Source of the DNA: Burkholderiales bacterium
Lineage (GTDB): Bacteria > Pseudomonadota > Gammaproteobacteria > Burkholderiales > Burkholderiaceae_C
Reading direction: 5' to 3'
Length of the DNA: 64,000 bases
NCBI GenBank assembly: GCA_016191995.1
Contig: JACPVA010000031.1
Location: forward strand, 1 to 64,000
Position 1 is the stretch's first letter, and each line of letters starts with the position of its first letter. The notes beneath the pieces are model-generated. The model did not search any database, was not told the DNA's origin, and saw only the letters and a list, made by a program, of their open reading frames with translations. The position numbers and the translations under genes were made by a program. Of this stretch, positions 48,553 to 61,753 are shown piece by piece.

Positions 48553-49359
48553 TCAGGTTCTGTGCCACGAACCGTACTCCTTGATTCGTGACAGAACCGC
48601 ATCGTAGATCCTGCGGTTGGGCTCGCAAAGCTCCCGAACCCGCGCATCGATCTGTGGCGTTATCTCCCGCTGTTGCTCCTCGGCCGTACGTGGGTTCTTG
48701 TTGTGGTGCTCGATAGGCAACGTAATGCCCAAGAGGCGTTCGCAGTCCGCAGTCAGGACGTTCATGTGCTCAAGCAGTCCGACGACAGGGAAACGCTGAA
48801 GGTTATCGACGGCTCGGTCGATGGCATCATCCGAGTCGGAATCATCCGCCGACATCAGAGCGCTCACATAACTACTACCGAGACTACGCGCCTGGGGAGA
48901 TTCTATGTAGACCTCGAGGGGTTCACTGATGCGGAAGTGATCCTGCCCAGGTTTGTCACGATTGAAGAAGTAGTGGGAGTACCACCGGGCGACCGGATCG
49001 CGAAGGATCGTCATGAAATGCCATTCAGCACTGAAAACCTTCCATGCGATATCACTGTAAACGAAGTGGCCCGAGATATATCGGTTGCGCTGAACTGCCA
49101 TATGGTACAGAAGCAAGCGGGTTCGGAAACCGTGCATGGTCTCCTGAAGCAGTTCGGCTGCAAACTTGGAAGCCGGCGCATCGAGGTGCACGACGGAGTG
49201 GCCCGAGCTCTTGTAGATTCTGCGAAGGGCCGCATCCAGCGACGTACCGCCACACTTCGGCAGATGCAAGAAGAACAGGCGCTGAGTTGCGACTGCCGGT
49301 TCCTGCAGCCGTTTGTTCTCTTGGTCGCGGCGAAAGTAGTTCTTCAGGAATTGGTGCAT
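48553..49359 (-). CDS. Sulfotransferase, family-2 type, low GC
   Basis: The 268-residue product starts MHQFLKNYFRRDQEN at 49359. LFFLHLPKCGGTSLDAALR is the PAPS loop and HFMTILRDPVARWYSHYFFN the 3'-phosphate site. Base composition and codon choice are clearly different from the flanking genes and similar to the 38.2-40.9 kb cassette, suggesting an independent or related transfer. The gene stands alone, convergent with the metallopeptidase gene. Confidence 0.87.
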   Translation of the reverse strand: MHQFLKNYFRRDQENKRLQEPAVATQRLFFLHLPKCGGTSLDAALRRIYKSSGHSVVHLDAPASKFAAELLQETMHGFRTRLLLYHMAVQRNRYISGHFVYSDIAWKVFSAEWHFMTILRDPVARWYSHYFFNRDKPGQDHFRISEPLEVYIESPQARSLGSSYVSALMSADDSDSDDAIDRAVDNLQRFPVVGLLEHMNVLTADCERLLGITLPIEHHNKNPRTAEEQQREITPQIDARVRELCEPNRRIYDAVLSRIKEYGSWHRT

Positions 49360-49675
49360 TGCCGTCTTTCTATCCGTGCTGCAGTCGAACCCGGCGTGGA
49401 ATAGCAGCCAGCACAACCGCCAAGGTACCAAAGGCATCGACTTCGGGGCGGCACTTCATCGGCACGTCCGCGCCGGCTGCATCGCTTGGGGCGCTCAAGC
49501 TGTCGTCTGCGCGCGGGTGCGCAATCACCCGATATCCGCCGCGGCGTCGACACCGCGGCGACGCTCCGGCCGCGACTGCCGCGCCCGCACGCCTGGAACA
49601 GCGGCTGAACGGGGTCACTGGCAGAACACCCGCCGGCACTCGCGCTGCCAATACGCGGCATGAACGAATCGAGGA
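49360..49675. other. Intergenic stretch, 316 bases
   Basis: This is the upstream region of the low-GC sulfotransferase gene and the end of the dgkA run. Composition changes from AT-richer to GC-rich across it. No gene, RNA or clear promoter was recognised. Confidence 0.45.
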
Positions 49676-50116
49676 TCATGCCCACAACGCGATCGCCCAC
49701 ACCATCACGACGGTCACCAGGCTGACCATCACCGCCGCGCTGCCCAGGTCCTTGGCCCGCCCCAGCAGCGGATGGTGGTCGACACTCAGCGCATCGGCGA
49801 TCGCCTCGATGGCGGAGTTGAGCAGCTCGACGACGAAGACGAAGAGGATGCTGGCCGCCATCGCCGCCGCCTGCCAGCGGCCGGGGGCCAGCCACGGCGT
49901 GGCCACCAGCATCGGGATGCCGATCGCGAGCTCCTGGCGGAACGCGGCCTCGTGGCGGATCGCCGATTGCAACCCGGCGGCCGAATAGCGCGCGGCCGCG
50001 GCGATGCGGGACAGCCCGCCGCGGCTCTTGAACGCCGAGGTCGGCCGATCGCGCGGCCCGGGCGGCTCGGGCGGCTCCGACGGCGGCTCGCGCGGCGGGG
50101 TACGCGGCATGCTCAT
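49676..50116 (-). CDS. dgkA: Diacylglycerol kinase
   Basis: The product is about 146 residues from ATG 50116 (50110 also possible), with a Pro-rich N-terminal extension of about 30 residues before the roughly 120-residue DgkA core. RYSAAGLQSAIRHEAAFRQE, three membrane helices and VVELLNSAIEAIADALSVD carry the conserved catalytic Glu and Asn residues. DgkA phosphorylates diacylglycerol at the inner membrane, recycling the by-product of phospholipid headgroup transferases. Its place at the end of an operon with an alkaline-phosphatase-superfamily membrane protein suggests exactly that role. Confidence 0.88.
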   Translation of the reverse strand: MSMPRTPPREPPSEPPEPPGPRDRPTSAFKSRGGLSRIAAAARYSAAGLQSAIRHEAAFRQELAIGIPMLVATPWLAPGRWQAAAMAASILFVFVVELLNSAIEAIADALSVDHHPLLGRAKDLGSAAVMVSLVTVVMVWAIALWA

Positions 50117-50249
50117 CCGCGGCCTGGCGGGAAGCGGGCGCGCTGGCGCCCGCCTGCGGGCCGCCGCATTGGACAGGGCCGGGCGCCTGCGCGAGAGCCG
50201 CTGCCGGCGCGCCCGCCACAGGCCTGGCCGCGCCGCGCCGCGTCCGCTG

Positions 50250-51479
50250 TCATGGCCGACGCCGCGCATAGACCAGCAGCTCGTCGCCCCAGCCGCGCCG
50301 CTCGATCGGCTCGAGGGCGAACCGGGTATGGCGCGCGAGCGCGTTCGTCAGCGGCTGTGCGCGCTGCAGCAGGTCCAGCCATCTCTGCAGCAGGCCGGAG
50401 GACGTGGGCGCACCGCGATCGGCGGCACGCGGCGCTGCGGCATCGGCCGCGGCGGGCGCCTCGGGCCTGGCAGCCGTTCCCGCCAAGGCAGCCTCGGCCC
50501 GTTCGCCCGCTGGCAGCGGCGCCGGCGCCGGCACGGCCCCACCCTGCCCCCGCGTGCGCAGCCGCAACCGCAGCTCGTTGAGCGCGTGGCCGGCCCACAT
50601 AAGCGTGTACTGGTAGAGGTTGTTGCCGTCGCCGCGCTGGGTGCGAACCTCGACGACCTCGAAGCCGCAGTCGCGCAGCAGGCGCGGCAAGGTGCTGCGC
50701 GAGAAGAACCACAGGTGCGTGGGCGGGCACATCCACGGCCACCACACGCCGGCCACGCGCGATCCGAAGCTCTCGGCGTTCGGCACCCGGATCCCGAGCA
50801 CCCCGCCTGGCCTGAGCAGGCTCGCGAGCCTGAGGATCTGGGCCTTGGGGTCGCGCGAGTGCTCCAGCACATGCCACAGGATCGCCGCGTCGAAGCTGCC
50901 CGGCTCCAGAGGGGCCTCGCCGAGGTCGCTGCCGAAGACCTCCAGCCCGAAGTGCTCGCGCGCATAGGCCGCCGCGGCACCCGAGAGCTCGACCCCCGCG
51001 ACGTCCCATCCCATGTCCCGCGCCAGCGCGAGCGAATGCCCGTAGGCGGCCCCGACCTCGAGCAGGCGCCCGCGCTCGGGCCGCCAGCGCTCGAGCTCGG
51101 CGATGCGTGCGATGTTGCGCTCGCGCGCGGCGGCGTAGCGCTCGAGCGACACCGCGTAGTTGCGCGCGTAGTGGTCGCTGAGCTCCTGCGCGGTCGGGGT
51201 CGGCCAGACGAACTGCAACCCGCAGCCGAGGCAGCGGTAGACCGGGTAGCCGCGCTGCACGAAGCGCTGCGCGCGCGAGGTCGAGCCGCAGACGAGGCAC
51301 GCGCTGCCCGGCGGCGGGGCCGCCGCGGCGGCCCCGCCGGCCGGCGCGGCGGGCAAGTCGGTCGAGGTCTCCACGGGTCCTCGCTGGGGTGCTGGCGGTG
51401 GCGCCGGGTCGAGCGGGCGCGGGCGACCGCCCTGCCCCGCGGCGGCGCGGGGCCCGCGGGATTCGTCCGGGGCCTTCAT
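50250..51479 (-). CDS. SAM-dependent methyltransferase with zinc-ribbon-like start
   Basis: The 409-residue product has a Pro/Ala-rich N-terminal stretch, then SACLVCGSTSRAQRF ... YRCLGCGLQFVWP (two CxxC pairs). The class I methyltransferase fold follows: LLEVGAAYGHSLALARDMGW as motif I and FDAAILWHVLEHSRDP as the post-II segment. This layout is common in methyltransferases of surface glycan and natural-product clusters. The acceptor is unknown. Its ATG overlaps the stop of the membrane transferase gene by 4 bases. Confidence 0.85.
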   Translation of the reverse strand: MKAPDESRGPRAAAGQGGRPRPLDPAPPPAPQRGPVETSTDLPAAPAGGAAAAAPPPGSACLVCGSTSRAQRFVQRGYPVYRCLGCGLQFVWPTPTAQELSDHYARNYAVSLERYAAARERNIARIAELERWRPERGRLLEVGAAYGHSLALARDMGWDVAGVELSGAAAAYAREHFGLEVFGSDLGEAPLEPGSFDAAILWHVLEHSRDPKAQILRLASLLRPGGVLGIRVPNAESFGSRVAGVWWPWMCPPTHLWFFSRSTLPRLLRDCGFEVVEVRTQRGDGNNLYQYTLMWAGHALNELRLRLRTRGQGGAVPAPAPLPAGERAEAALAGTAARPEAPAAADAAAPRAADRGAPTSSGLLQRWLDLLQRAQPLTNALARHTRFALEPIERRGWGDELLVYARRRP

Positions 51480-53656
51480 GGCGCGACGCAGCCGGTGCCG
51501 GCGGGCGCGGCCGCCGGTGCCTGGGGCGCCGAGCCTGCCGCCGACGCCGCCGCACGCGGCCGGCCGAGCTCGTCGGCAAGCAGCCAGCCGTCGAGGATCG
51601 CGCGCAGCCGCGCCGCCACGTCCGGATACCGGGCCAGCACGTCGCGCTGGCAGCCCGGGTCGTCGGCGATGTCGAACAGCTTGTACAGCGCGCCACGGTT
51701 CAACGGCTGGTACGAGAGCTTCCAGTTGCCGACGCGCACCATGCGGTCCTTGGCCTCGACGACGACCTGCATGTAGCGCGGCTTCAGCGCGATCATGCCG
51801 CTCGCCTTGTCGGGGACCTCGAGCAGCTCGGGCAGGTGCGGGTAGCGGATGTGGTCGTCCGGGGTGCCGGGCAGGTCGGTCAGCCAGACGCCGGTCTCGT
51901 AGAAGGCCGGCAGCTCCTGCACCAGGGGCTCGCCGCGCAGCAGCGGCGCCAGCGACACGCCCTCCACCGTCGGCGGCACAGGCACGCCGGCCAGCTCGAG
52001 CAGCGTCGGCGCGAGGTCGATCGTGCGCACGACCTCGCCCGCCTTGCGCGGCTGCGGGTGGCGCGGGTCGGCGACGATGATCGGCACCCGGGCCGAGAAA
52101 TCGCCCACCGCGGTGTTGCCCTGGCCCCAGGTCTCGTGCTCGAAGAACTCGAACCCGTGGTCGCTGTAGACGACGACGATGGTGTCGTCGGCCAGCCCCG
52201 AGGCCTGCAGGTAGTCGAGCACGCGAGCGACCTCGTCGTCGAAATTGCGCACGCAGCCGTCGTACAGGTCGATGATCTGTTCCAGGTCGAACTCGGACCT
52301 GGGCTCGCCCTGGCGGCGGATGATCTCCCAGGGGTCGCGCAGCTTGGCCATGCCGAACTTGGACTCGCCGCGGTAGGCGGGGTCGGAGAACATCTGGTAG
52401 TAGGGGTGCTTGGACGTGAACGGCGGGTGTGTCGTCGCCATGAACGACATGATGAAGAAGGGTTCGTCCTTGCGCGCCAGGCGCGCGATCATGCGCCGTG
52501 TGTCCAGCCCGATCTCCTCGGTCAGCGGGATGCCGCCCAGGTAGTAGACCTCGGGCAGGAAGACCTTGCCGAGGCGCCCCTGGGTGAACAGCGACAGGAA
52601 CAGCCGCAGGTCCTTAGGCCCCTGGCGCAGCAGGTACTTGATATTCCACTGGTCGGTCGGCATGTCGGCGTGCTCGAAGCCGAAGTCGAACTTCTCGGCG
52701 TCCGAGCCGGCCCAGTCGCAGACGATCGCCGACCGGTAGCCCACCCCGCGCAGGATGCTGGGCAGCGCGGGCACGGGCAGCCGCGTCTGCTCGGGCGTGA
52801 CGAAGGTGTCGCGCACGCCGTGCGTATGCGGCCAGGTGCCGGTCAGCATCGACACCACGCTGGGCGCGGTGCGCGCACAGGGGACGTAGCAGTCGGTCAG
52901 GATGGTCGCGCGCCGCGCCAGGCGGTCCAGCGCCGGCGTCAGCGCGCGGCGGTAGCCGGCGCCGCCCAGGCGGTCGGCGCGCAGCGTGTCGGAGCCGATC
53001 ATCAGGATATTGGGCCGGCCGGGCTTCTTCGCCTGCCGCACGGGCGCGGGCTCGGGCCCGCTGCCGGCCAGCCGCCAGGCGGCCACGCCTGCGGCGGCCA
53101 GCACGAGCACGACGGCGGCCGCGATCCAGCCGCCGCGCGACGCCAGCACCGCCGCGCCGGCGGCCAGCCACAGCGCGAGCACGCCGAACAGCAACGCGTC
53201 GAGCAGCCTCAGCCGGGCCGGCGTCAGCCGATCCCAGACCGGCAGCAGCCGCGCCGTCGAGTAGAGGAAGGAGCTCGCGATGACGCCGGGCGAGTGCAGC
53301 AGCGTGTGCAGGAACTGCCGCGCCGTCAGCAGCAGGATGGCGGCCAGCGCTGCCGCTGCGGCCGCGATGGCATCGAAGGGCGCGCCCAACACCAGCGTGC
53401 CCAGCGCGTAGGCCAGCGCCCCGGTGAGCCCAAGCGCGAACGCGATGACGAACGCGTAGAAGGCCAGCCGCGCGAGCGACCCCGCTAGATAGAGCCGGTA
53501 GTGCCGCAGCACCTCCTCGGTCATCTGCGGGCCGGTGCGCGTGAAGTCGCTCAGCGACTTGACGAGGACGAGCAGCGTGAAGACCCCGGCCGCCACCGCA
53601 TCGGCCACGGTGGCGCGCAGCATGGTGTCCAGCGCGAGGGCGTCGAACGGGTTCAC
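51476..53656 (-). CDS. Membrane sulfatase-superfamily protein, likely headgroup transferase
   Basis: The 726-residue product starts at GTG 53656. Five transmembrane helices fall at about 17-34, 57-75, 76-92, 96-113 and 152-195 (the last region holds a further hydrophobic pair), then a periplasmic alkaline-phosphatase-superfamily domain. Metal residues are in ILMIGSDTLRADRL (D223) and VYSDHGFEF. At the nucleophile, sulfatases have CxPxR; here CARTAPSVVSMLTG aligns Thr263 with that Cys, as in phosphoethanolamine or phosphoglycerol transferases (EptA, MdoB, LtaS). The membrane layout and dgkA downstream favour such a transferase over a sulfatase. Confidence 0.75.
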   Translation of the reverse strand: MNPFDALALDTMLRATVADAVAAGVFTLLVLVKSLSDFTRTGPQMTEEVLRHYRLYLAGSLARLAFYAFVIAFALGLTGALAYALGTLVLGAPFDAIAAAAAALAAILLLTARQFLHTLLHSPGVIASSFLYSTARLLPVWDRLTPARLRLLDALLFGVLALWLAAGAAVLASRGGWIAAAVVLVLAAAGVAAWRLAGSGPEPAPVRQAKKPGRPNILMIGSDTLRADRLGGAGYRRALTPALDRLARRATILTDCYVPCARTAPSVVSMLTGTWPHTHGVRDTFVTPEQTRLPVPALPSILRGVGYRSAIVCDWAGSDAEKFDFGFEHADMPTDQWNIKYLLRQGPKDLRLFLSLFTQGRLGKVFLPEVYYLGGIPLTEEIGLDTRRMIARLARKDEPFFIMSFMATTHPPFTSKHPYYQMFSDPAYRGESKFGMAKLRDPWEIIRRQGEPRSEFDLEQIIDLYDGCVRNFDDEVARVLDYLQASGLADDTIVVVYSDHGFEFFEHETWGQGNTAVGDFSARVPIIVADPRHPQPRKAGEVVRTIDLAPTLLELAGVPVPPTVEGVSLAPLLRGEPLVQELPAFYETGVWLTDLPGTPDDHIRYPHLPELLEVPDKASGMIALKPRYMQVVVEAKDRMVRVGNWKLSYQPLNRGALYKLFDIADDPGCQRDVLARYPDVAARLRAILDGWLLADELGRPRAAASAAGSAPQAPAAAPAGTGCVAP

Positions 53657-53686
53657 GGCCTGTGCGGGGTCGGCCTGTGCGGGGTC
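53657..53686. repeat. Tandem 15-base direct repeat next to a start codon
   Basis: GGCCTGTGCGGGGTC occurs twice head-to-tail (53657-53671 and 53672-53686), directly before the GTG start of the membrane transferase gene on the minus strand. The second copy runs into GGGGTCAGGT (53681-53690), a half-site of the 27827 palindrome. Confidence 0.7.
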
Positions 53687-53731
53687 AGGTCCGCTGGACG
53701 GTGCCCGACAGCGCGGCGGACCGGGGCGCCA

Positions 53732-54010
53732 TCAGCGCCGCGGCGCGCCGCCCTTGCGCGCGAGCAGGAAGGCGGCCATGGCGTCGATCGACCCGAGGTT
53801 GTCGATATTGATCTCCTCCTGCGCCAGCGGCAGCGCGTAGGCCTGCTCGAACCAGACGACGAGCTCGAGCACGGCGCTGGAGTCGAGCAGCCCGGTGGCG
53901 GGGATGATGTCGTCGTCGGCGATGCCGCTGGCGTCCATGCCCAGCGTGCGCGCCAGCGCGACGACCTTGTCGCGGATCGCGGCCTTGACGGCCTCGGGTT
54001 GCAGGTTCAT
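53732..54010 (-). CDS. Acyl carrier protein
   Basis: The 92-residue product contains GLLDSSAVLELVVWFE, where Ser44 after Asp43 is the expected phosphopantetheine attachment site, and a typical helix IV region (NLGSIDAMAAFLL). It is not the fatty-acid synthesis AcpP (no DSLD). The ATG overlaps the stop of the E2-like gene (ATGA), so the lipoyl protein and ACP are made together. It implies an acyl-thioester intermediate specific to this operon. Confidence 0.87.
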   Translation of the reverse strand: MNLQPEAVKAAIRDKVVALARTLGMDASGIADDDIIPATGLLDSSAVLELVVWFEQAYALPLAQEEINIDNLGSIDAMAAFLLARKGGAPRR

Positions 54011-55161
54011 GCGGCGGCTCCCTCGGTCGGCTGCGGCGGCTGCGGCGGCTGCGCCAGCGCCTGCAGCAGCTGCACGACGTCGGCCCCCGACAGCAGCCGG
54101 TGGTCGTAGGTGGCGCCCAGCACCGCGCGGCCCGTGGCGCGCGGCGCCGAATGGGCGACGATCAGCCCGGTGTGCGGCGGCAGGATAGGGACATGGCGGC
54201 TGACCTGCCAGCGCGCCATGCTGGTGAAGGCGATCGTCGCGCCCGTCAGCTCGGCGCTGCCCAGCCGGTGCGCCAGCGCCCGGCGCTGCAGCGCGCCCAG
54301 CGCATCGACGAAGCCGGCGGCGTCGAGCCGCGCGGCGTCGCGCACGACGGCCAGGTACAGCGTCGCGCCGGCCTGCACCGTGAAGCCGAGGTTGACCTCG
54401 GTGTAGCGGTAGCGGCGCTCGCCGACGATGGCGGCGTTCAGCCTCGGCTGCTGCGCGGCCAGCTCGACCAGCCGCCAGGCCATCAGCGGCATCAGCGGCG
54501 GCATCAGCAGGCGATGCCGATCGGCGAAGCCCTTGGCCCAGGCGTCCCAGGGCTGCGGGTCGTATTCCAGCTCGATATAGCCCGGCACGGCGTGGTCGCG
54601 GTGCCACAGCACGGTGGCGAGCATGCCGTGCTCCTCGGGCGACAGGGTCTCGAAGACGCCTGCGGCGCCGGGTGCGCGCTCGGCGGCCGCGGCCGGCGTC
54701 CGTGGCGCACTGCCAGCCGGCGCGCCGCCGGGCGCCGCAGCGCCCTGCGACACCAGCCAGGTGTCGATGTCGGCCTCGGTCAGGCGCGCAGCGGCGGCGG
54801 GGACCTGCTCGGCGCGCAGGCCGAGCGCCTTCAGCCGCGCGCGCGCGCCGGCGGTCGGCCGGCCCGGCGCGCCGGCAGCGGCCTGCACCAGGGCGGCGTC
54901 GGCCTCGGGGACGGGCTCGTCGGGGTGGTCGCCCAGCCACAGCAGCACCGAGCCGACCGCGGCCTGCGCGCCGAGCTCGGCGACGACGGCCAGCACATGG
55001 CCGCCGCGCTCGGCCTGGACCTCGAGCACCGACTTGTCGGTCTCGACCGCGCCGACGAGCTGCCCGGGCTCGACGATGTCGCCGGGCCCGACCTTCAGCT
55101 CGACGACGGTGACGACGTCGTCGTTGTTGTTGACGCGCGGGACGCGAAGCGGGTGCGGCAT
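54007..55161 (-). CDS. Lipoyl-domain E2-like acyltransferase
   Basis: The 384-residue product has an N-terminal lipoyl domain (AVETDKSVLEVQAERGG, Lys43 the attachment site), an E3-binding-type helix pair (about 103-137, with RLKALGLRAEQVPAAAARLTEADI) and the chloramphenicol-acetyltransferase-fold E2 domain. Its active-site motif is DHRLLSG (353-359) where E2 enzymes have DHRxxDG: the catalytic His is kept but Asp is Ser. It may transfer an acyl group from lipoate to the adjacent ACP rather than to CoA. No E3 gene is present in the window. Confidence 0.82.
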   Translation of the reverse strand: MPHPLRVPRVNNNDDVVTVVELKVGPGDIVEPGQLVGAVETDKSVLEVQAERGGHVLAVVAELGAQAAVGSVLLWLGDHPDEPVPEADAALVQAAAGAPGRPTAGARARLKALGLRAEQVPAAAARLTEADIDTWLVSQGAAAPGGAPAGSAPRTPAAAAERAPGAAGVFETLSPEEHGMLATVLWHRDHAVPGYIELEYDPQPWDAWAKGFADRHRLLMPPLMPLMAWRLVELAAQQPRLNAAIVGERRYRYTEVNLGFTVQAGATLYLAVVRDAARLDAAGFVDALGALQRRALAHRLGSAELTGATIAFTSMARWQVSRHVPILPPHTGLIVAHSAPRATGRAVLGATYDHRLLSGADVVQLLQALAQPPQPPQPTEGAAA

Positions 55162-55181
55162 GCGGCGGGGTTGGGGTCAGG

Positions 55182-57227
55182 TCAGAACATGTCGGCGACG
55201 CGCTCGACGATGGCGTCGACGTCCGGGATGAGCTGCCGCTCGAGGCTGCGCGCCGACGCGATCGGCACCGGCGGGGTGCCGATGCGGATCAGCGCGCCGG
55301 CGAATCCGTCCTCGGCCAGGCAGGCGGCGATCTCGGCGGCGATGCCGTACTCGGCGTGCGACTCCTCGACGATCGCCACCCGCGCGCGCTGCAGCAGGTG
55401 GCCGATCAGCGTGCCGCGCGGCATCGGCGCGAGCAGCGACGGGCTGACGATCTCGACCGCGAGCTCCTCCTCGTCCTCGAGCCTGCGCGCGGCCTCCTCG
55501 ACGACCGGCAGCATGCCGCCGAAGCCGACAAGCGTGACATCGGGCGCCTGCGCGCCGCGGCGCAGCGTCGGGAACAGCTCCGCGGCAGCGTCGCCATCGT
55601 GCGCCGGCAGCTCGGCATAGCCGGCGCGGTCGAGCTTCTCGCCGTACAGCAGCTTGTGCTCGAGGAAGACGACCGGGTAGGGCCAGCGCAGCGTGGCGTC
55701 GACGAGCATGCGCCCGGCCGGGTGGCGGTGGCTGGGGTAGACGACGGTCAGCCCCGGCACCGAGCCGAGCAGGTTCTCCGGGCTCTGGCTGTGCGTCGGG
55801 CCGTAGCCGCGCCGGCCGCCGCAAGGCGTGCGGATGACCAGCGGCACCGGCATGGCGTCGAACATGCCGGGGAACTTGACCGCGTGGTTGTAGAGCTGGT
55901 CCATGCACAGGGTCAGGAAGTCGGCGAACATGACCTCCATCACCGGCCGCAGGCCCGCCAGCGCGAGGCCGATCGACGCCCCGGTGACGCCGGCCTCGCT
56001 GATCGGGGTCGAGATGACGCGGCCGGCGAAGCGCGTCGACAGCCCCTGCGTGACCTTGAACGCGCCGCCGTAGGGCTCGTGCAGGTCCTGCCCGATCAGC
56101 AGCACCTCGGGTGCCGTCTGCAGCAGATGGCCGAGCGCGGCGTTGAGCGCCTGGCGCATGCCGGTGCCGGGCGGCGGGTCGGGTAGCGCCGGCGGGGCCG
56201 ACGACAGCGGCAGCGCGAAGATATGCCGCGGCGGCTCGGCGTAGCGGGCCTCCGGCGAGGCCTCGGCGCGCTCGCGCACCTGCTCGACGAAGCGCGCGTT
56301 GCGCGCCTCGATGCGCTCGCGCGTGGCGTCGGGCAGGCGGCGGCCGAGTGCGGCCAGCGGGTCGCGGCGGCGGATGCCGTCGAGCTCCTCGCCGTCGCGC
56401 AGGTCGTCGCCCTTGCTGTGCGGGCCCATGCGCTGCGTGTCGAGGACGAGCAAGCCGGGGCCGCCGGCGGCGCGCAGCTCGGCGACGGCGGCGGCGACGC
56501 GGTCGCAGAACTCGGGGTCGTCGTCGGCGAAGCGCCAGGTCGGCAGCCCGAAGGCGGCGCCGCGCGCCTCCAGGCTGCCGCCCATGGTCTCGCGCGTGTA
56601 GGTGGTCTGCGCGATGCCGTTGTTCTCGACCACGACGAGCAACGGCGCGCGCCAGACCGACGCCAGGTTCATGCTCTCGTACAGCAGACCCTGGCCGAGC
56701 GTGCCGTCGCCGACGATCGTCGCCACCAGCGCGCCGCCGCCGCGCAGCTTGCGCGCCAGCGCCAGCCCGGCACCGATGCCGGTCATGCCGCCTTGCACGC
56801 CGTTGCTGTGGAAGTGGCCGGCGGCGATATGCTGGCTGCCGCCGCGGCCGCGGCAGACGCCGGCCTCGCGGCCCATGATCTCGGCGACCAGGCCGACGAA
56901 GTCGCCCGCATAGGTCAGGAAGTGGCCGTGGTTGCGGTGGTTGGACAGCACCGCGTCGTCGGCATGGTCGAGCGCGCGCACGACCGCCATCGCGGCCAGC
57001 TCCTGGCCGATGCAGGTATGCGTGGTGCCCGACACCAGCCCGCGCGCGAACTGGTCGAGGATCAGCTGCTCGGTCGAGCGCACGAGGTGGCCCCAGGCGA
57101 ACAGCGACTCGGCGTCCAGCCCGATCAGCGGCCGGCCCGAGGGCGAGCGGCCGAAGCCGGGCAGCGGCGGCGCGGCGCCGGGGCCGAGGGCGTCGAGGAC
57201 GTCGAGGGGCGAGGCGATTCGATCCAT
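55182..57227 (-). CDS. Fused E1 alpha/beta 2-oxoacid dehydrogenase
   Basis: The 681-residue product starts MDRIASPLDVLDALG. Residues about 40-345 are the TPP-binding E1 alpha part (THTCIGQELAA, GMTGIGAGLALA, GDGTLGQG ... VENN at 173-203). Residues about 360-681 are E1 beta (IGQDLHEPYGGAFKVTQGL, TPISEAGVTGASIGLA, then GYGPTHSQSPE). E1 decarboxylates a 2-oxoacid and acylates the lipoyl arm of E2. Branched-chain, pyruvate or acetoin-type substrates are possible. It starts a minus-strand run and is divergent from a GNAT gene. Confidence 0.88.
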   Translation of the reverse strand: MDRIASPLDVLDALGPGAAPPLPGFGRSPSGRPLIGLDAESLFAWGHLVRSTEQLILDQFARGLVSGTTHTCIGQELAAMAVVRALDHADDAVLSNHRNHGHFLTYAGDFVGLVAEIMGREAGVCRGRGGSQHIAAGHFHSNGVQGGMTGIGAGLALARKLRGGGALVATIVGDGTLGQGLLYESMNLASVWRAPLLVVVENNGIAQTTYTRETMGGSLEARGAAFGLPTWRFADDDPEFCDRVAAAVAELRAAGGPGLLVLDTQRMGPHSKGDDLRDGEELDGIRRRDPLAALGRRLPDATRERIEARNARFVEQVRERAEASPEARYAEPPRHIFALPLSSAPPALPDPPPGTGMRQALNAALGHLLQTAPEVLLIGQDLHEPYGGAFKVTQGLSTRFAGRVISTPISEAGVTGASIGLALAGLRPVMEVMFADFLTLCMDQLYNHAVKFPGMFDAMPVPLVIRTPCGGRRGYGPTHSQSPENLLGSVPGLTVVYPSHRHPAGRMLVDATLRWPYPVVFLEHKLLYGEKLDRAGYAELPAHDGDAAAELFPTLRRGAQAPDVTLVGFGGMLPVVEEAARRLEDEEELAVEIVSPSLLAPMPRGTLIGHLLQRARVAIVEESHAEYGIAAEIAACLAEDGFAGALIRIGTPPVPIASARSLERQLIPDVDAIVERVADMF

Positions 57228-57478
57228 GGTCGGTACGGGCGCGGCGCGGCATCGTCGTGCCGGCCGCGGGGACTGCGGATTCTGGGCCAGCGCGCTCGCG
57301 CCGCGAGCCGGCGCGGCGCAGCCGGCGGCGGCGATGACCAAATCTTGCCGGTTCGCCGCTGCGGCCGAGCCGGCGGCGCCGATTTGTACCGGCGGCGCGC
57401 GCCGCCGACGCACGCGGCCCGGGTGGCTGACGCTACATTCGGCCGGATCGACCCGATCGACCCGATGCAGCCGCGCCG
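57228..57478. promoter_or_regulatory. Divergent control region with an imperfect dyad
   Basis: This 251-base gap between the E1 gene and the GNAT gene contains CAAATC (57339-57344) and GATTTG (57381-57386). Inside them are GCCGG and CCGGC, giving an imperfect inverted repeat of about 48 bases centred between the two genes. It could be a regulator operator. Clear -35/-10 elements were not found. Confidence 0.3.
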
Positions 57479-58339
57479 ATGGCCCTGCCGACCCTGCACC
57501 CGATCCACGACGACGACCTGCCCGAGTTCTGCCGCTTCCTGACCGAGCACCTGAGCGCCGAGCGCTCGGCGCAGGACTGGGCACAGGCCTTCCTGCAGGG
57601 CTGGTGCGCCGACAAGCCGAACAACGGCTTCCTGCTGCGGCACGAGGGGCGCATCGTCGGCGGCATCGGCGCGATCTACGCCGAGCGCATGCTGCGCGGG
57701 CGGGCCGAGCGCTTCTGCAACATCACGAGCTGGTGCGTGCTCGACGAGTTCCGCACCCAGAGCGGGCGGCTGGCGATGGCGGTGGTGTCGCAGCCCGGCT
57801 GGCATTTCACGGACCTGACCCCGACCGAGGTCGTCTCCAGGACGCTGCAGTTCTTCAAGTTCAAGCCGATGGACGAGCGCCACCTGGTGTGGCCGAACCT
57901 GCCCTGGCCCGGCGTCCTGGCCGGCGTGCGGGTGGCGACCGACCCCGAGCACATCGCCGCGCTGCTGGCGCCCGACGATGCGCGCACCTTCCGCGACCAC
58001 CGGCATCTGCCCTGGCTGCGCCACCTCGCGGTCGGCCGCGGCGACGCCTGGTGCCATGTCGTGTGGCGAACGACGCGGCTGAAGAACCTGACCGGGGCGA
58101 TGGTGCTGGCCTTCAGCGACGCCGAGCTCTTCCTGCGCCACCGGATGACGCTGGCCAGCCACCTGCTGCTGCGCCACGGCATGCCGTTCACGCGCGTCGA
58201 GGCACGGCTGCTGCCGCGGCTGCCGCGGCCTGCTCTCGAGCTGGCCGGCTACCGCAACAAGGTCTTCCGCAGCGAGACGCTGCAGCCGGCCGACATCAGC
58301 AACCTCTATAGCGAGCTGGTGGCGCTGGACCTGTCATGA
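57479..58339 (+). CDS. GNAT-like acyltransferase
   Basis: The 286-residue product has an N-terminal LHPIHDDDLPEFCRFLTEHL as in GNAT proteins, GGIGAIYAERMLRG, and a later CVLDEFRTQSGRLAMAV where the acyl-CoA or acyl-carrier pyrophosphate loop is expected. The C-terminal half has no clear family. Such proteins next to deacetylases in EPS loci are thought to N- or O-acylate sugars. Divergence from the E1-E2-ACP run makes it a candidate user of the acyl group produced there (inference). Its stop overlaps the next ATG. Confidence 0.65.
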   Translation: MALPTLHPIHDDDLPEFCRFLTEHLSAERSAQDWAQAFLQGWCADKPNNGFLLRHEGRIVGGIGAIYAERMLRGRAERFCNITSWCVLDEFRTQSGRLAMAVVSQPGWHFTDLTPTEVVSRTLQFFKFKPMDERHLVWPNLPWPGVLAGVRVATDPEHIAALLAPDDARTFRDHRHLPWLRHLAVGRGDAWCHVVWRTTRLKNLTGAMVLAFSDAELFLRHRMTLASHLLLRHGMPFTRVEARLLPRLPRPALELAGYRNKVFRSETLQPADISNLYSELVALDLS

Positions 58340-59409
58340 GGCACCCCGAGGCCGCGCCCGCGATGGCGCACGACCGCAGCACGCCCGGCTGGCCCGCCGG
58401 GCGCGAGCCGCTGCGGCTGCCGGCATCGACGCGGCCGATCTTGACGGTGGTGATCCACACCGAGGAGGAGTTCGACTGGGACAAGCCGCACGACCGCGGC
58501 GCGACGACCGTCGAGCACCTGCGCCACCTCGGCCGCGCGCAGTCGCTGTTCGACGAGTTCGGCATCGTGCCGAACTATGTCGTCGACTACCCGGTGGCGG
58601 CGGCCGGCGACGCCGCGGCACTGCTTAAGGGCTATGCCGACAGCGGCCGCGCACTGATCGGCGCCCACCTGCACCCCTGGGTCTCGCCGCCGCATGCCGA
58701 GCCGGTGAACGCCTTCAACTCCTACCCGGGCAACCTGCCGCCCGAGCTCGAGGAGGCCAAGCTGCGCGAGCTGACGGAGCGGATCGAGCACCGCTTCGGC
58801 AGCCGGCCGCGGACCTACCTGGCCGGGCGCTACGGGTTCGGGCCGAATACGGCGCGCATCCTCGAGGCGCTGGGCTACGAGGTCGACATCAGCCCGGCGG
58901 TGCCGATCGACTTCTCGGCCGACGGCGGGCCGGACTACTCGGGCTTCACGAGCCATCCATACTGGTTCGGCCAGCGGCGGCGGCTGCTCGGGCTGCCGGG
59001 CAGCGGCGGCTATGTCGGTGCGCTGCGCCGCGGCGGCACGCCGCTGTACCGGCGGCTGACCGCGCCAGCGATGCGGCGCGCGAAGATCGCCGGCGCGGTG
59101 GCGCGGCTGCGGCTGCTGGAACGCATCCGGCTGTCGCCGGAGGACTACGACGGCTCCGCGATGCAACGGCTGACGGCGACGCTGCTGGCCGACGGGGTAC
59201 GTATCTTCGTCTTCAGCTTCCACTCGCCGTCGGTGATGCCGGGCTGCACGCCGTATGTCCGCAACGACGCCGAGCTGGAGCGCTTCCTGGCACGCTGCCG
59301 GCGCTACTTCGAGCATTTCATGCGCAGCCTCGGCGGCCAGACGATGACGCCGCTGCAGCTCAAGGACCTGCTGCAAGGCCAGGCAGCGACACGAGGAGCC
59401 ACGCCATGA
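58336..59409 (+). CDS. WalW-like polysaccharide deacetylase
   Basis: The 357-residue product lacks a signal peptide. [14 protein letters not shown] is the metal and base region, [12 protein letters not shown] supplies His ligands, and [14 protein letters not shown] and FVFSFHSPS complete the WalW-type subfamily of NodB-fold deacetylases, found in LPS and capsule loci. It would act on an N-acetyl sugar in the cytoplasm. The start overlaps the GNAT stop (ATGA) and its stop overlaps the hddA ATG, so all three are co-translated. Confidence 0.83.
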
Positions 59410-60437
59410 TCATCCGCGCACGCGCGCCGCTGCGCCTGGGGCTGGGCGGCGGCGGCACCGACGTGTCGCCCTACTGCGACCTGCATGGCGGGTTGGTGCT
59501 GAACGCGACGATCGACAAGTACGCCTACGCCGTCATCGAGCCGCTGGAGCCCGCCGACGGTGTGCAGTTCACGGCCGCCGACAAGCAGGAGCAATGGCGC
59601 GGCGAGGCCGAGCCGGTGCTGGCGCTGGACGGCCGGCTCGACCTGCACAAGGGCGTCTACAACCGCATCGTGCGCGACTTCAATGGCGGCCGGCCGCTGC
59701 CGCTGCGGATGACGACGCACACCGACGCGCCGCCGGGGTCGGGGCTGGGGTCGTCGTCGACGCTGGTGGTATCGATGATCAAGGCCTTCGTCGAGTGGCT
59801 CAACCTGCCGCTGGGCGAGTACGACATCGCGCGGCTCGCGTTCGAGATCGAGCGCCACGACGTCGGGCTGTCGGGCGGCCGCCAGGACCAGTATGCGGCG
59901 ACTTTCGGCGGCTTCAACTTCATGGAGTTCCACCCGCAGGAGCGGGTCGTCGTCAACCCGCTGCGGATCAAGAACTGGATCGTCTCGGAGCTGGAGGCGT
60001 CGCTGCTGCTGTACTTCGGCGGCGTCTCGCGCGACTCGGCGCGCATCATCGACGAGCAGGCCGGCAACGTGAAGGCTGGCGACGGCGGCGCGATCGACGC
60101 CATGCACGCGCTCAAGCACGAGGCGCTGGCGATGAAGGAGTGCCTGCTCAAGGGCGACTTCGACGGTTTGGTCGAGTCGATGGAGGCCGGCTGGCAGGCC
60201 AAGAAGCGCATGGCGCGCAGCATCTCCAACCCGCAGATCGACGCCAGCTACGAGCTGGCCAGGCGCGCCGGGATGCGCGCCGGCAAGGTCAGCGGCGCCG
60301 GCGGCGGCGGCTTCATGATGCTGCTCGTCGACCCGGTGCGGCGCATGGACGTGATGCGCGCGCTGGCGCAGACCAACGGGCAGGTTTTCAGCTGCCACTT
60401 CACCGAGATCGGGACCCAGGGATGGAAGATCTACTGA
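59406..60437 (+). CDS. hddA: D-glycero-alpha-D-manno-heptose-7-phosphate kinase
   Basis: This 343-residue GHMP kinase shows [17 protein letters not shown] at the start, [15 protein letters not shown] as the ATP-binding motif and [15 protein letters not shown] near the end. [13 protein letters not shown] is typical of the HddA branch. It makes D-glycero-alpha-D-manno-heptose 1,7-bisphosphate for GDP-heptose, the donor for heptose in S-layers, capsules and O-antigens. AGGAG precedes the ATG, and gmhA overlaps its end by 16 bases. Confidence 0.93.
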
Positions 60438-61027
60438 GCGAGGGCGTCGCCGGGCAGTTCCGGCAGACGGCGGACAACCTGCGCGCGATGAGCGAGGACG
60501 CAGCACTGCGCGCGGCGGTGGTCGCGGTGGCCGGCGCCTGCGTCGAGGCGCTGCGGCGCGGTGGCAAGATCCTGTTCGCCGGCAACGGCGGCAGCGCCGC
60601 CGACGCCCAGCACCTGGCGGGCGAGCTCGTCAGCCGCTTCGACTACGACCGCCCGGGGCTGGCGGCGTTCGCGCTCTCGACCGACACCTCGGTGCTGACC
60701 GCGATCGGCAACGACTACGGCTACGAGCGCGTCTTCGCGCGCCAGGTCGAGGCGGTCGGGCAGCGCGGCGACGTGCTGGTCGCGATCTCGACCTCGGGCC
60801 GATCGCCGAATATCCTGGCCGCGCTCGAAGCGGCGCGCGCGAAGGGCCTGGTGACGGTCGGCATGACCGGGCGCGGCGGCGGGCGCATGCCCGAATACTG
60901 CGACCACCTGCTGCGCACGCCGTCGGACGCGACGCCGCGCATCCAGGAGGGGCACATCGCGATGGGCCACGCGATCTGCTGGTTGATCGAGCGCGCGCTG
61001 TTCCCGCAGCCGGCACCGGCGGCGTAG
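60422..61027 (+). CDS. gmhA: Sedoheptulose-7-phosphate isomerase
   Basis: The 201-residue product contains [20 protein letters not shown] (phosphosugar-binding loop of the SIS fold), [20 protein letters not shown] and [14 protein letters not shown], all diagnostic of GmhA. It converts sedoheptulose 7-phosphate to D-glycero-D-manno-heptose 7-phosphate, the first step of the heptose pathway. The ATG at 60422 lies within hddA and hddC starts directly after its stop. The length is normal. Confidence 0.93.
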
Positions 61028-61753
61028 ATGCAGGCGATCGTGCTGGCCGGCGGGCTGGGCACGCGGCTACGAAGCGCCGTGCCCGACCTGCCGAAACCGA
61101 TGGCGCCGGTGGCGGGGCGGCCGTTCCTGGCCTGGATCCTCGACCAGCTCGAGGGCGCCGGCTTCGCGCGCGCGGTGCTGGCGGTGGGCTACCGGCACGA
61201 GGCGATCCGCGACCACTTCGGCGACCGCCACGGCGCGCTGGCGCTGCGCTACAGCGTCGAGGACCGGCCGCTGGGCACCGGGGGTGCGCTGCGGCTGGCG
61301 TGCGATCAGGCCTACGACCAGGCGGACGACCCGGCGGGCGACGACGCGATCTTCGTGCTCAACGGCGACACCTTCGTCGAGCTCGACCACCGCGCGATGC
61401 GCGCGGCTCACGGTGCGGCGGGCGCCGCACTGAGCATCGCGGTGCACCGCGTCGACGACACCGCGCGCTACGGCGCGCTGGAGCTGCGCGACGGACGCGT
61501 GTGCGGCTTCATCGAGAAGGGCCGGCGCGGCCCGGGCTGGATCAACGCCGGCGTCTACCTGCTGGCGCGCGGGCTGCTGCGGCAGCTGCCGGCGGGCCGC
61601 GCGCTGTCCTTCGAGCAGGAACTGCTGGTGCCGCAGGTGCGGTCGCTGCGCCCGCCGGCCTTCGTCGCCGAGGGCCTGTTCATCGATATCGGGGTGCCCG
61701 AGGATTACGCGCGGGCGCAGGGCTTGTTCGCGCGGCGTGCAGCGCGGCACTGA
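61028..61753 (+). CDS. hddC: D-glycero-alpha-D-manno-heptose-1-phosphate guanylyltransferase
   Basis: This 241-residue nucleotidyltransferase begins MQAIVLAGGLGTRLRSAVPD with LPKPMAPVAGRPF, the pyrophosphorylase signature, and has FVLNGDTFVEL (metal Asp) and GWINAGVYLL. With hddA and gmhA alongside, HddC (GDP-heptose synthesis) is the best call, although single-gene similarity would also allow other sugar-1-phosphate nucleotidyltransferases. An orphan hicB-like gene separates it from gmhB. Confidence 0.88.
   Translation: MQAIVLAGGLGTRLRSAVPDLPKPMAPVAGRPFLAWILDQLEGAGFARAVLAVGYRHEAIRDHFGDRHGALALRYSVEDRPLGTGGALRLACDQAYDQADDPAGDDAIFVLNGDTFVELDHRAMRAAHGAAGAALSIAVHRVDDTARYGALELRDGRVCGFIEKGRRGPGWINAGVYLLARGLLRQLPAGRALSFEQELLVPQVRSLRPPAFVAEGLFIDIGVPEDYARAQGLFARRAARH

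Follow-up and report, generated by a model that had tools for sequence, protein, structure and literature searches.

A block of five genes in a glycan locus of a Burkholderiales bacterium, encoding a PDH-like E1, an E2, an acyl carrier protein (ACP), a GNAT-like acyltransferase and a CE4-fold deacetylase-like protein, looks like a kit for exchanging the acetyl group of an amino sugar for another acyl group, which would be a new use of the PDH-like family. On balance, we favour its reading as a polysaccharide N-acyl-exchange module that follows the logic of NodB and NodA. The TPP-dependent E1 would start from a two-carbon unit (glycolaldehyde is the likeliest, drawn from xylulose 5-phosphate or another ketose phosphate) and would use it to reductively acylate the lipoyl domain of E2. 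From there, the acyltransferase domain of E2 would hand the acyl group on to the dedicated ACP, at its phosphopantetheine, and not to CoA, and the lipoyl arm would be re-oxidised by a housekeeping E3. The CE4-type deacetylase would act on an amino sugar, either in the glycan of the locus or in its precursor, and strip off the N-acetyl group, and the freed amine would receive the acyl group from the ACP via the tandem-GNAT protein. Of these steps, loading of the ACP by E2 is very probable and use of this ACP by the GNAT protein is probable; glycolyl is, by a slight preference, the acyl group on the ACP, and the swap of N-acetyl for N-acyl has about an even chance of being correct. If true, the mechanism offers a CoA-independent route from central sugar metabolism to the chemistry of surface polysaccharides, accounts for orphan E1-E2-ACP sets and for an unnamed GNAT family of exopolysaccharide loci, and predicts bacteria that carry unusual N-acylated, perhaps N-glycolyl, sugars.

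Gene content and conservation of the locus

The initial annotation of the window, i.e., the whole stretch of 64,000 nucleotides that was analysed, described a six-gene run with a divergent GNAT-like gene, and all of these genes were recovered, the run by Pfam and the GNAT-like gene by its AlphaFold2 fold. The described ATGA overlap of the E2 and ACP genes is exact, and the AP-superfamily and methyltransferase genes likewise overlap by ATGA. The features of the region are:

49676..50116, minus strand: DgkA diacylglycerol kinase, start codon uncertain; outside the conserved module (Pfam, 3e-30)
50250..51479, minus strand: class I methyltransferase; outside the conserved module (Pfam, 5.1e-28)
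51476..53656, minus strand: membrane AP-superfamily protein (726 aa), downstream of the ACP; outside the conserved module (Pfam Sulfatase, 1.7e-45)
53732..54010, minus strand: dedicated ACP (92 aa) with Asp-Ser phosphopantetheine motif (Pfam PP-binding, 4.3e-5, 24.1 bits, cut-off 20.8; alignment)
54007..55161, minus strand: E2-like protein (384 aa) with lipoyl domain (ETDK), shortened subunit-binding-like region and acyltransferase domain with DHRLLSG (Pfam Biotin_lipoyl, 2.3e-9, and 2-oxoacid_dh, 1.7e-15, covering only profile positions 61-221 of 232; alignment)
55182..57227, minus strand: fused, TPP-dependent E1 alpha/beta (681 aa, single ORF) with motifs GRRGYGPTHSQ and GPHSKGDD, grouping with ACP-linked E1s (Pfam E1_dh, 1.8e-38, Transket_pyr, 1.7e-31, and Transketolase_C, 2.7e-17; trees)
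57228..57478, no strand: intergenic region from which the E1 and GNAT operons diverge
57479..58339, plus strand: tandem-GNAT acyltransferase-like protein (286 aa), proposed ACP-dependent N-acyltransferase (AlphaFold2, fold search, conservation)
58336..59409, plus strand, start maybe 58363: CE4/NodB-fold deacetylase-like protein, distantly WalW-like, its gene overlapping the 3' end of the GNAT gene (AlphaFold2, fold search, GNAT fusion in relatives)
59406..61753, plus strand: three genes further downstream in the GNAT operon, like HddA, GmhA and HddC (GDP-heptose supply); associated with the module but outside its core (best NCBIfam matches, each below the curated cut-off)

The run contains no E3 gene, as had been described, and this was rejected as a clue, because E3 can act in trans: three E3 loci over the cut-off lie elsewhere in the genome, together with one LipA match and two PPTase-family matches.

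An E2-seeded scan of genome contigs with two peptide patterns yielded 25 related loci, several on short stretches. E1 was called in 23 of these and the ACP in 21 (directly after E2 in 19, about 10 kb off in two); the GNAT protein was found in 21 and the deacetylase in 17, both counts including two fusions, and HddC and GmhA occurred in two loci and one locus, respectively. The gaps in these counts fall mostly on short contigs or on an exosortase-type variant. The conserved unit consists of E1-E2-ACP with the divergent GNAT-like protein and the CE4-fold deacetylase-like protein. Its gene order, in which deacetylase-GNAT and E1-E2-ACP point away from each other, is found again in another family of the order, with 50-70% identity, and in further loci, and the arrangement is therefore not a matter of chance. 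Moreover, in two alphaproteobacterial loci (L035 and L036) the deacetylase and the GNAT protein form a single polypeptide encoded directly after E1-E2-ACP. No deacetylase was called in the exosortase-type variant (L030-L033), so that the acyl swap would not be universal. A search of viral contigs and plasmids with the E2 gave no match.

E1, E2 and the carrier protein

In the E1 tree (midpoint root), a group of 22 rows was split from 15 ordinary E1s with support of 100/100; it comprises the E1s of the module and those related to them, together with RenH and two E1s of Streptomycetaceae. The cassette rows of the tree were RenH and the two Streptomycetaceae sets, not the published Nap/Qnc/Scl proteins; the Streptomyces E1s derive from sets of ACP-E1a-E1b-E2 layout. 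The motif RGYGPTHSQ occurs in 21 of the 22 E1s of the module group and in none of the 15 ordinary ones, and a long branch separates the module E1s from those of NRPS pathways. Two candidate relatives (L106 and L107; E1 matches of 1e-138 and 1e-133) proved to be ordinary E1s and served as controls.

For E2, the alignment revealed that the lipoyl start PRVNNNDD resembles the Streptomyces PKLNNNDD, and the joining of module and NRPS E2s in the tree is not robust (support 62/53, long branches). The GSGxxG loop of the subunit-binding domain, a feature of housekeeping 2-oxoacid dehydrogenases, is lacking in the module E2; it was absent from 16/16 ACP-type E2s and present in 4/4 controls. The lipoyl Lys, the E2 His and the ACP Ser are conserved. 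Loss of the Asp in DHRxxDG was also considered as a marker of ACP use; it was weakened by a second E2 of the same genome, which reads DHRFVNG, and by L101, which keeps DHRVADG.

The module shares a TPP-dependent E1 alpha and beta, a lipoyl-acyltransferase E2 and a discrete ACP with the Nap/Qnc/Scl/Din glycolicacyl-ACP cassettes (NapB-NapC-NapD, QncN-L-M, SclQ1-4). Passages of PMC6335953 credit QncN/L/M with making a C2-glycolicacyl unit and attaching it, and propose the same role for SclQ1-4, and passages of PMC7570522 assign a hydroxyethyl unit to NapB/NapD homologues and include a KASIII protein in a Nap-type system. Unlike in the Nap/Qnc/Scl cassettes, E1 alpha and beta are fused in the module; moreover, those cassettes have an NRPS as client, whereas the module has a GNAT protein and a deacetylase in a glycan locus, with no NRPS or KASIII seen. 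Four further E1s of the module group (L103, L104, L105 and L108) have as partner a hexapeptide acyltransferase-like protein of PglD/NeuD type to which a lipoyl-type domain is fused, an arrangement that differs from that of the window in its hexapeptide fold and in having no ACP in the fusion. At one of these loci (L104) an E3-like gene lies near the E1.

The GNAT-like and deacetylase-like partners

Searches against the sequences of solved structures gave no match for the GNAT protein and weak matches only for the deacetylase (best E 0.25), and predicted folds were therefore used for both. The sole Pfam match of the former was to GNAT (PF00583), below threshold (E 0.036, 14.8 bits, cut-off 20.7). 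The AlphaFold2 model of the protein (mean pLDDT 87.2) shows tandem GNAT domains, the best rows being tied at Z around 13 to Eis, NMT and glucosamine N-acetyltransferase (Eis 3r1k: Z 13.8, rmsd 4.3, 258 residues). The deacetylase had no Pfam match at an E limit of 10 (with filters that drop most matches above 0.1), neither to NodA/NodB models nor to PF01522. Its AlphaFold2 model has a NodB-type fold (Z 21.5 to 3rxz, rmsd 3.4, 246 residues; Z 17.0 to ArnD) and also aligns to GH57 glycosidases, a related barrel, with Z up to 16.9. The canonical CE4 metal motif is HxxxHP, whereas the deacetylase carries an invariant HLHPW (H-L-H-P). Similarity to WalW-like deacetylases is distant (25.5% over 70% for a protein annotated WalW).

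The pairing of a sugar N-deacetylase with an ACP-dependent sugar N-acyltransferase is that of NodB-NodA in Nod factor synthesis. The module differs from that system in the lack of Pfam matches to the NodA/NodB models, in its short acyl group, presumably supplied by E1-E2, in its polysaccharide locus and, among relatives, in the fused deacetylase-GNAT form. Passages of PMC5080398 describe NodA as an acyl-ACP-dependent sugar N-acyltransferase. The fused form recalls the arrangement of heparan N-deacetylase/N-sulfotransferase (NDST), to which the deacetylase model aligns (NDST1, Z 14.8). NDST is bifunctional, combining a deacetylase with the transferase that places a new substituent on the amine set free; NDST puts on sulfate and the module would put on an acyl group, and no homology is claimed for the transferase halves.

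Neighbours were scored within 6 kb of 38 GNAT copies in relatives, which come from few genera (14/213 in a phylum survey) and are not independent, 13 of them sitting less than 6 kb from a stretch end. An ACP was found near 17 copies, a count that is partly circular since 8 training ACPs came from the same loci (8/8 match Pfam PP-binding, 6 above cut-off); 151.5 kb of control DNA from other genomes gave no ACP match. A CE4-type deacetylase accompanied 12 copies and a loader candidate 14 (E1 in four, HAD-IIIC in six, AMP ligase in four), so that at least one of ACP, loader and deacetylase was near 26 copies and none near 12. The GNAT of L067 was found by profile and is absent from the gene calls.

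The GNAT family also occurs in XrtA/exosortase-associated loci with TIGR03098-TIGR03101 (ligase, PLP decarboxylase, hydrolases 1 and 2), where ligase and decarboxylase may be the loader in place of E1-E2. Both hydrolases lie, over cut-off, between ACP and GNAT in L030-L033, and ligase, decarboxylase and ACP lie near the GNAT in Sinorhizobium and Aureimonas. Within the open-licence literature, no paper was found that joins exosortase, acyl carrier protein, pyruvate dehydrogenase and exopolysaccharide, and none among the matches listed combined 'lipoyl domain' with N-acetyltransferase, PglD or NeuD. In the PEP-CTERM paper PMC1569441, the terms acyl-CoA, acyl carrier, hydrolase, dehydrogenase and decarboxylase do not occur; PMC7293339 mentions both exosortase and acyl carrier protein.

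Two generalizations are proposed, with an evenly balanced chance of holding jointly. One is that the tandem GNAT is a general ACP-dependent acyltransferase with an exchangeable loader (E1-E2, HAD-IIIC, or AMP ligase with PLP decarboxylase). The other is that a class of PDH-like acyl makers is dedicated to amino-sugar acylation: an E1 of the glycolicacyl group would charge a lipoyl arm, and the sugar would receive the acyl group either via E2, ACP and a deacetylase-coupled GNAT, as in the window, or straight from a lipoyl domain to which an acyltransferase of PglD/NeuD-like type is fused. With the exchangeable loaders and the deacetylase-GNAT fusion, the prediction lends itself to testing one gene at a time.

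Alternative explanations

The same machinery might carry another acyl group, with E1 using a 2-oxoacid (pyruvate, hydroxypyruvate or a branched one) and the ACP bearing acetyl or another acyl. The E1 profile matches are to PDH E1 families, the sequence does not by itself reveal the substrate, and the long branch between module and NRPS E1s would suit such a difference. This is nevertheless unlikely, as the E1 groups and shares motifs with cassettes of glycolyl-ACP layout, and the use of acetyl-ACP to N-acetylate a just-deacetylated amine would be futile. That the genes represent a duplicate of some housekeeping or catabolic 2-oxoacid dehydrogenase, with an ACP next to it that has no relation to it, is scarcely credible: the domain content is that of PDH, but the E1s form a separate group, the window offers a glycan setting, and the homologous operons with E3 and without ACP that would have spoken against the initial annotation did not turn up, there being no E3 homologue in the 25 loci and an ACP directly after E2 in most of them. 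It is also quite improbable that the acyl group of the ACP ends up in a lipid or a small secondary metabolite and not in a polysaccharide. E1-E2-ACP relatives do serve NRPS pathways, the ACP weakly matches an ornithine-lipid ACP model (32 bits, cut-off 130), and GNAT relatives lie beside an adenylating enzyme and a halogenase in Rhizobium T1473 and beside an NRPS in L082, so that not all GNAT clients are glycans. The run itself, however, contains no NRPS, called ORFs of the window reach 726 aa at most, and no NRPS or PKS was present among the 30 of 52 called window genes first scanned; glycosyltransferases and an ABC exporter surround the module, an EpsH (exosortase) gene lies on the same contig, and the partner has a CE4 fold.

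Somewhat less unlikely than a different 2-oxoacid-derived acyl group, and still doubtful, is that the GNAT and the deacetylase act on different substrates, the former acylating a nucleotide sugar or an O-position and the latter making a free amine for charge. No CE4-type deacetylase lies within 6 kb of 26 of the 38 GNAT copies, none was called in the exosortase-type loci L030-L033, and four E1 relatives serve PglD-like proteins; PglD-type proteins act on nucleotide sugars. Against it stand the single deacetylase-GNAT polypeptide of L035 and L036 and the adjacency of the two genes in the window and in many relatives. The proposals of the initial annotation that E1 and E2 serve the ACP, and that the acyl group is used by a transferase to decorate the glycan, gained support: in the tree the module E1 falls with E1s from NRPS cassettes that load an ACP, and the conserved transferase partner is the divergent GNAT, which had merely been mentioned. 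The other half of that proposal, in which the AP protein adds a phospho-headgroup and DgkA recycles diacylglycerol, makes for a combined module that is highly improbable. The AP, methyltransferase and DgkA genes are co-directional and closely spaced with the ACP gene, and in G088, which also has the module, a partial AP homologue lies some 29 kb from it. Homologues of the three occur, however, in 0/25 related loci (tblastn 1e-5; several stretches short), and on this ground they were rejected as module parts. The E1 alpha/beta-E2-ACP run is real, but the conserved unit is not that of the initial annotation, whose interval 49676-58339 includes these three genes and omits the deacetylase gene.

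The 43 further loci (L046-L082, L101-L105 and L108) gave weak methyltransferase matches only (L066 and L050, 28-30%). Three diverged loci (L047, L055 and L056) have a methyltransferase between E2 and ACP (Pfam on L047 and L055), with no tblastn match to that of the window. In the nine stretches of G088, G201 and G129, the search turned up a partial AP homologue. Finally, the position of the sulfatase Cys is taken by Thr in the AP protein of the window, and this membrane protein may, judged from that motif, still be a headgroup transferase in its own right.

Gene content of the window and conservation of the module

Pfam searches bore out the genes that had been recognised in the initial annotation (DgkA, a methyltransferase, a sulfatase-type AP protein, an ACP, a lipoyl E2 and a fused E1 alpha/beta), and the ATGA overlap at the E2-ACP junction proved exact. 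The domain scan covered 30 of the 52 ORFs called in the window, plus two later ones, and neither the GNAT-like gene nor its downstream neighbour had an accepted match in Pfam or NCBIfam. The source genome (4.55 Mb, 199 contigs; the window is 1-64000 of contig C138) encodes E3, lipoate synthase and PPTases, and the glycan locus around the module contains glycosyltransferases, amidotransferase-like proteins, a PgaB-like deacetylase and an ABC-2 exporter. Further features were observed in and near this region:

Window 2476-4197 and 18670-20598: a pair of amidotransferases resembling asparagine synthase, within the glycan locus; both score below the cut-off of the XrtA amidotransferase model, which one matches in its rear part and the other in its front part
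Window 48553-49437: ORF downstream of DgkA, without a Pfam match at E 0.01, carrying an LPKCGGTSL motif that we take to be sulfotransferase-like
Window 51476-53656: AP-superfamily membrane protein with Thr (in TAPSVVSMLTG) at the position that is Cys or Ser in sulfatases, a feature of phosphotransferases
C138 84464-85216: EpsH-type exosortase gene, about 20 kb past the window; two further such genes lie on contig C52

Of 399 genomes of the order, five had a match to E2, among them the source genome and one at only 29% identity. Three genomes of another family have retained the order deacetylase, GNAT, divergent E1, E2, ACP at 50-70% identity. Scanning genome_contigs by E2 alignment yielded 25 loci, these three genomes included, and genes were called in all of them. 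E1 was called in 23, ACP was present in 21 (directly after E2 in 19, and about 10 kb off in L033 and L034; L-numbers denote stretches fetched from other genomes), GNAT in 21 (19 separate genes and two fusions), and the deacetylase in 17, fusions counted. On the short contigs L017, L028 and L037 (4.1-4.4 kb) neither GNAT nor deacetylase was seen, and GNAT was not seen in the L034 stretch. HddC homologues occurred in two loci and a GmhA homologue in one, and homologues of DgkA, the methyltransferase, the AP protein and E3 in none of the 25. This pattern delimits a five-gene module, and the headgroup half that had been proposed to belong to it (AP protein and DgkA) therefore drops out. In the module-bearing genome G088, homologues of several window glycosyltransferases were located on the module contig, as was a partial AP homologue about 29 kb away.

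The arrangement of the module varied. Type A, the layout of the window, is mostly betaproteobacterial going by record titles (Burkholderiaceae, Hydrogenophilales, Tepidiphilus, Gallionellaceae and Thiobacillaceae, with L040 as Gammaproteobacteria), several records being titled just Pseudomonadota or bacterium. In type B (L030-L033) there is no deacetylase, and ACP and GNAT flank two hydrolases known from exosortase A systems, hydrolase 2 (TIGR03101) and hydrolase 1 (TIGR03100), each above cut-off in all four loci; in L033, E1-E2 is set apart, with a TIGR03098 ligase and a TIGR03099 decarboxylase in between. ACP and hydrolase 2 were also present in L034. The alphaproteobacterial type C (L035, L036) has E1-E2-ACP followed by a single protein of 619 or 698 aa, which consists of the deacetylase at its N-terminus (45-50% identical) and the GNAT at its C-terminus (34-38%). 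That deacetylase and GNAT act one after the other is hinted at most strongly by this fusion, which comes right behind the carrier. The diverged loci L047, L055 and L056 display a row of E1, E2, methyltransferase (by Pfam on L047 and L055), ACP, GNAT and deacetylase.

Lineage of E1 and E2 and relatives outside the module

Among plasmid sequences, the module E1 was most similar to RenH, which is encoded on the renieramycin plasmid, and to E1 alpha and E1 beta genes from Streptomyces. In L083, a PKS and a condensation-domain protein are followed by ACP, E1 alpha, E1 beta and E2; in L086, a stretch lacking annotation, E1 alpha, E1 beta and E2 were called, with a weak ACP match immediately upstream. 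In midpoint-rooted trees of hand-chosen rows, module- and cassette-type E1s were split from the other rows with branch support of 100/100, both with 29 rows (16 against 13) and with 37 rows (22 against 15). The motif RGYGPTHSQ was found in 21 of the 22 group E1s (L105 has RAYGATHSQ) and in none of the 15 others, and HSKGDD in all 16 group E1s of the first tree. The E2 tree was not resolved; the lipoyl Lys and active-site His were retained in 20 of 20 E2s compared, a GSGxxG loop was absent from 16 of 16 ACP-type E2s and present in 4 of 4 controls, and the module E2s had a PxxNNND start in common with the two Streptomycetaceae E2s, as far as the sequences extended to it.

PMC6335953 states that a C2-glycolicacyl unit is produced and attached under the direction of QncN, QncL and QncM, and proposes a like role for SclQ1-4; deletion of sclQ1-4 left residual product, and glycolic acid restored production. 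In PMC7570522, NapB/NapD homologues are assigned to the hydroxyethyl unit from a pentulose phosphate, and a KASIII is named as a possible loader.

Eleven genomes of the phylum had an E1 match at 1e-130 or better. The window and loci of the L047/L055/L056 type account for four of these; L101 and L102 have E1-E2 followed by a PPTase-domain protein; in L103, L104 and L105 the partner of E1 is a hexapeptide protein to which a lipoyl domain, recognised by Pfam, is fused. L106 and L107 turned out to be ordinary E1s. A survey of the class found E1 in 2 of 369 genomes, the window counted, and added L108, with the layout of L103-L105 and a lipoyl part matched by the E2 profile and weakly by Pfam.

L102 5980-12074: a single run of ACP-like ORF, HAD-IIIC-like protein, E1, E2 and PPTase-domain protein
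L103 10441-11619, L104 7710-8810, L105 7323-8426 and L108 6705-7853: PglD/NeuD-like hexapeptide protein carrying a fused lipoyl-type domain, beside an E1 that groups with that of the module
L104 11727-13049: E3-like gene near E1 and the fusion, 33% over 462 aa to the E3 of the source genome

Hexapeptide repeats scored above cut-off in all four fusions, and PglD_N above it in L105 and L108, below it in L103 and not at all in L104; a DegT aminotransferase adjoins the fusion in L103 and L108. These fusions and their neighbours make it likely that, away from antibiotic pathways, E1s of this group can have an amino sugar as client, and in the fusions direct acyl transfer from lipoyl to sugar is possible.

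GNAT, deacetylase and the proposed pathway

Structure prediction (pLDDT 87) gave the GNAT a tandem-GNAT fold, with Eis, N-myristoyltransferases and a glucosamine N-acetyltransferase among its best fold matches, which are tied since all lie near Z 13. The deacetylase model (pLDDT 79) aligned best to polysaccharide deacetylases (3rxz: Z 21.5, rmsd 3.4, 246 residues; ArnD: Z 17.0) and more poorly to GH57 enzymes and NDST1. HLHPW is invariant in the candidate deacetylases and deviates from the textbook metal motif, so that their activity is putative.

In the order, 6 of 399 genomes matched the GNAT profile. The phylum survey had 28 positives among 398 genomes, and these fall into 14 of 213 genera. 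In 37 stretches with 38 GNAT copies (the phylum matches minus that of the window, plus one order match), the region within 6 kb held a CE4-type deacetylase for 12 copies, a loader candidate for 14 (HAD-IIIC 6, E1 4, AMP ligase 4) and an ACP for 17, by a profile trained partly on eight ACPs of these loci themselves. Pfam matched all eight (six above cut-off, two slightly under), and the profile had no match on ten control stretches from other genomes (151,502 bases). At least one of the three partners accompanied 26 of the 38 copies and none accompanied 12; 13 of all 38 copies lie less than 6 kb from a stretch end. HAD-IIIC proteins are able to load glyceryl units onto ACPs.

The analysis gives good support to the core idea of the initial annotation, in which E1-E2 loads an ACP that serves glycan decoration, and sharpens it. 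Homology to the published cassettes indicates that E1-E2 would load the ACP, and gene neighbourhood, fold and the deacetylase-GNAT fusion are consistent with acyl transfer from ACP to the sugar. The system would newly join two known logics: glycolyl-ACP loading, probable here and typical of NRPS cassettes of the Qnc/Nap type, and a putative exposure of an amine followed by its re-acylation, as with NodB/NodA.

GNAT relatives occurred on 54 plasmid records, of which five were inspected. An exosortase-type AMP ligase, a PLP decarboxylase and an ACP lie near the relative in Aureimonas and in Sinorhizobium meliloti pSymB:

L042 14953-18983: polysaccharide region of pSymB, from a species used in the laboratory, where the GNAT relative lies with a carrier protein, a PLP decarboxylase and an AMP ligase of exosortase type

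A HAD-IIIC protein is divergent from the relative on a Paludibaculum plasmid, a deacetylase adjoins that of a Sulfitobacter plasmid, and in Rhizobium T1473 it occurs with an adenylating enzyme and a halogenase. Beside GNAT in L048, L051 and L060, Pfam identified HAD-IIIC, ACP and MaoC plus an SDR protein, the last two of which suggest that the acyl group is processed further. In L082 (5104-10285), an NRPS with condensation, adenylation, carrier and thioesterase domains adjoins the GNAT relative.
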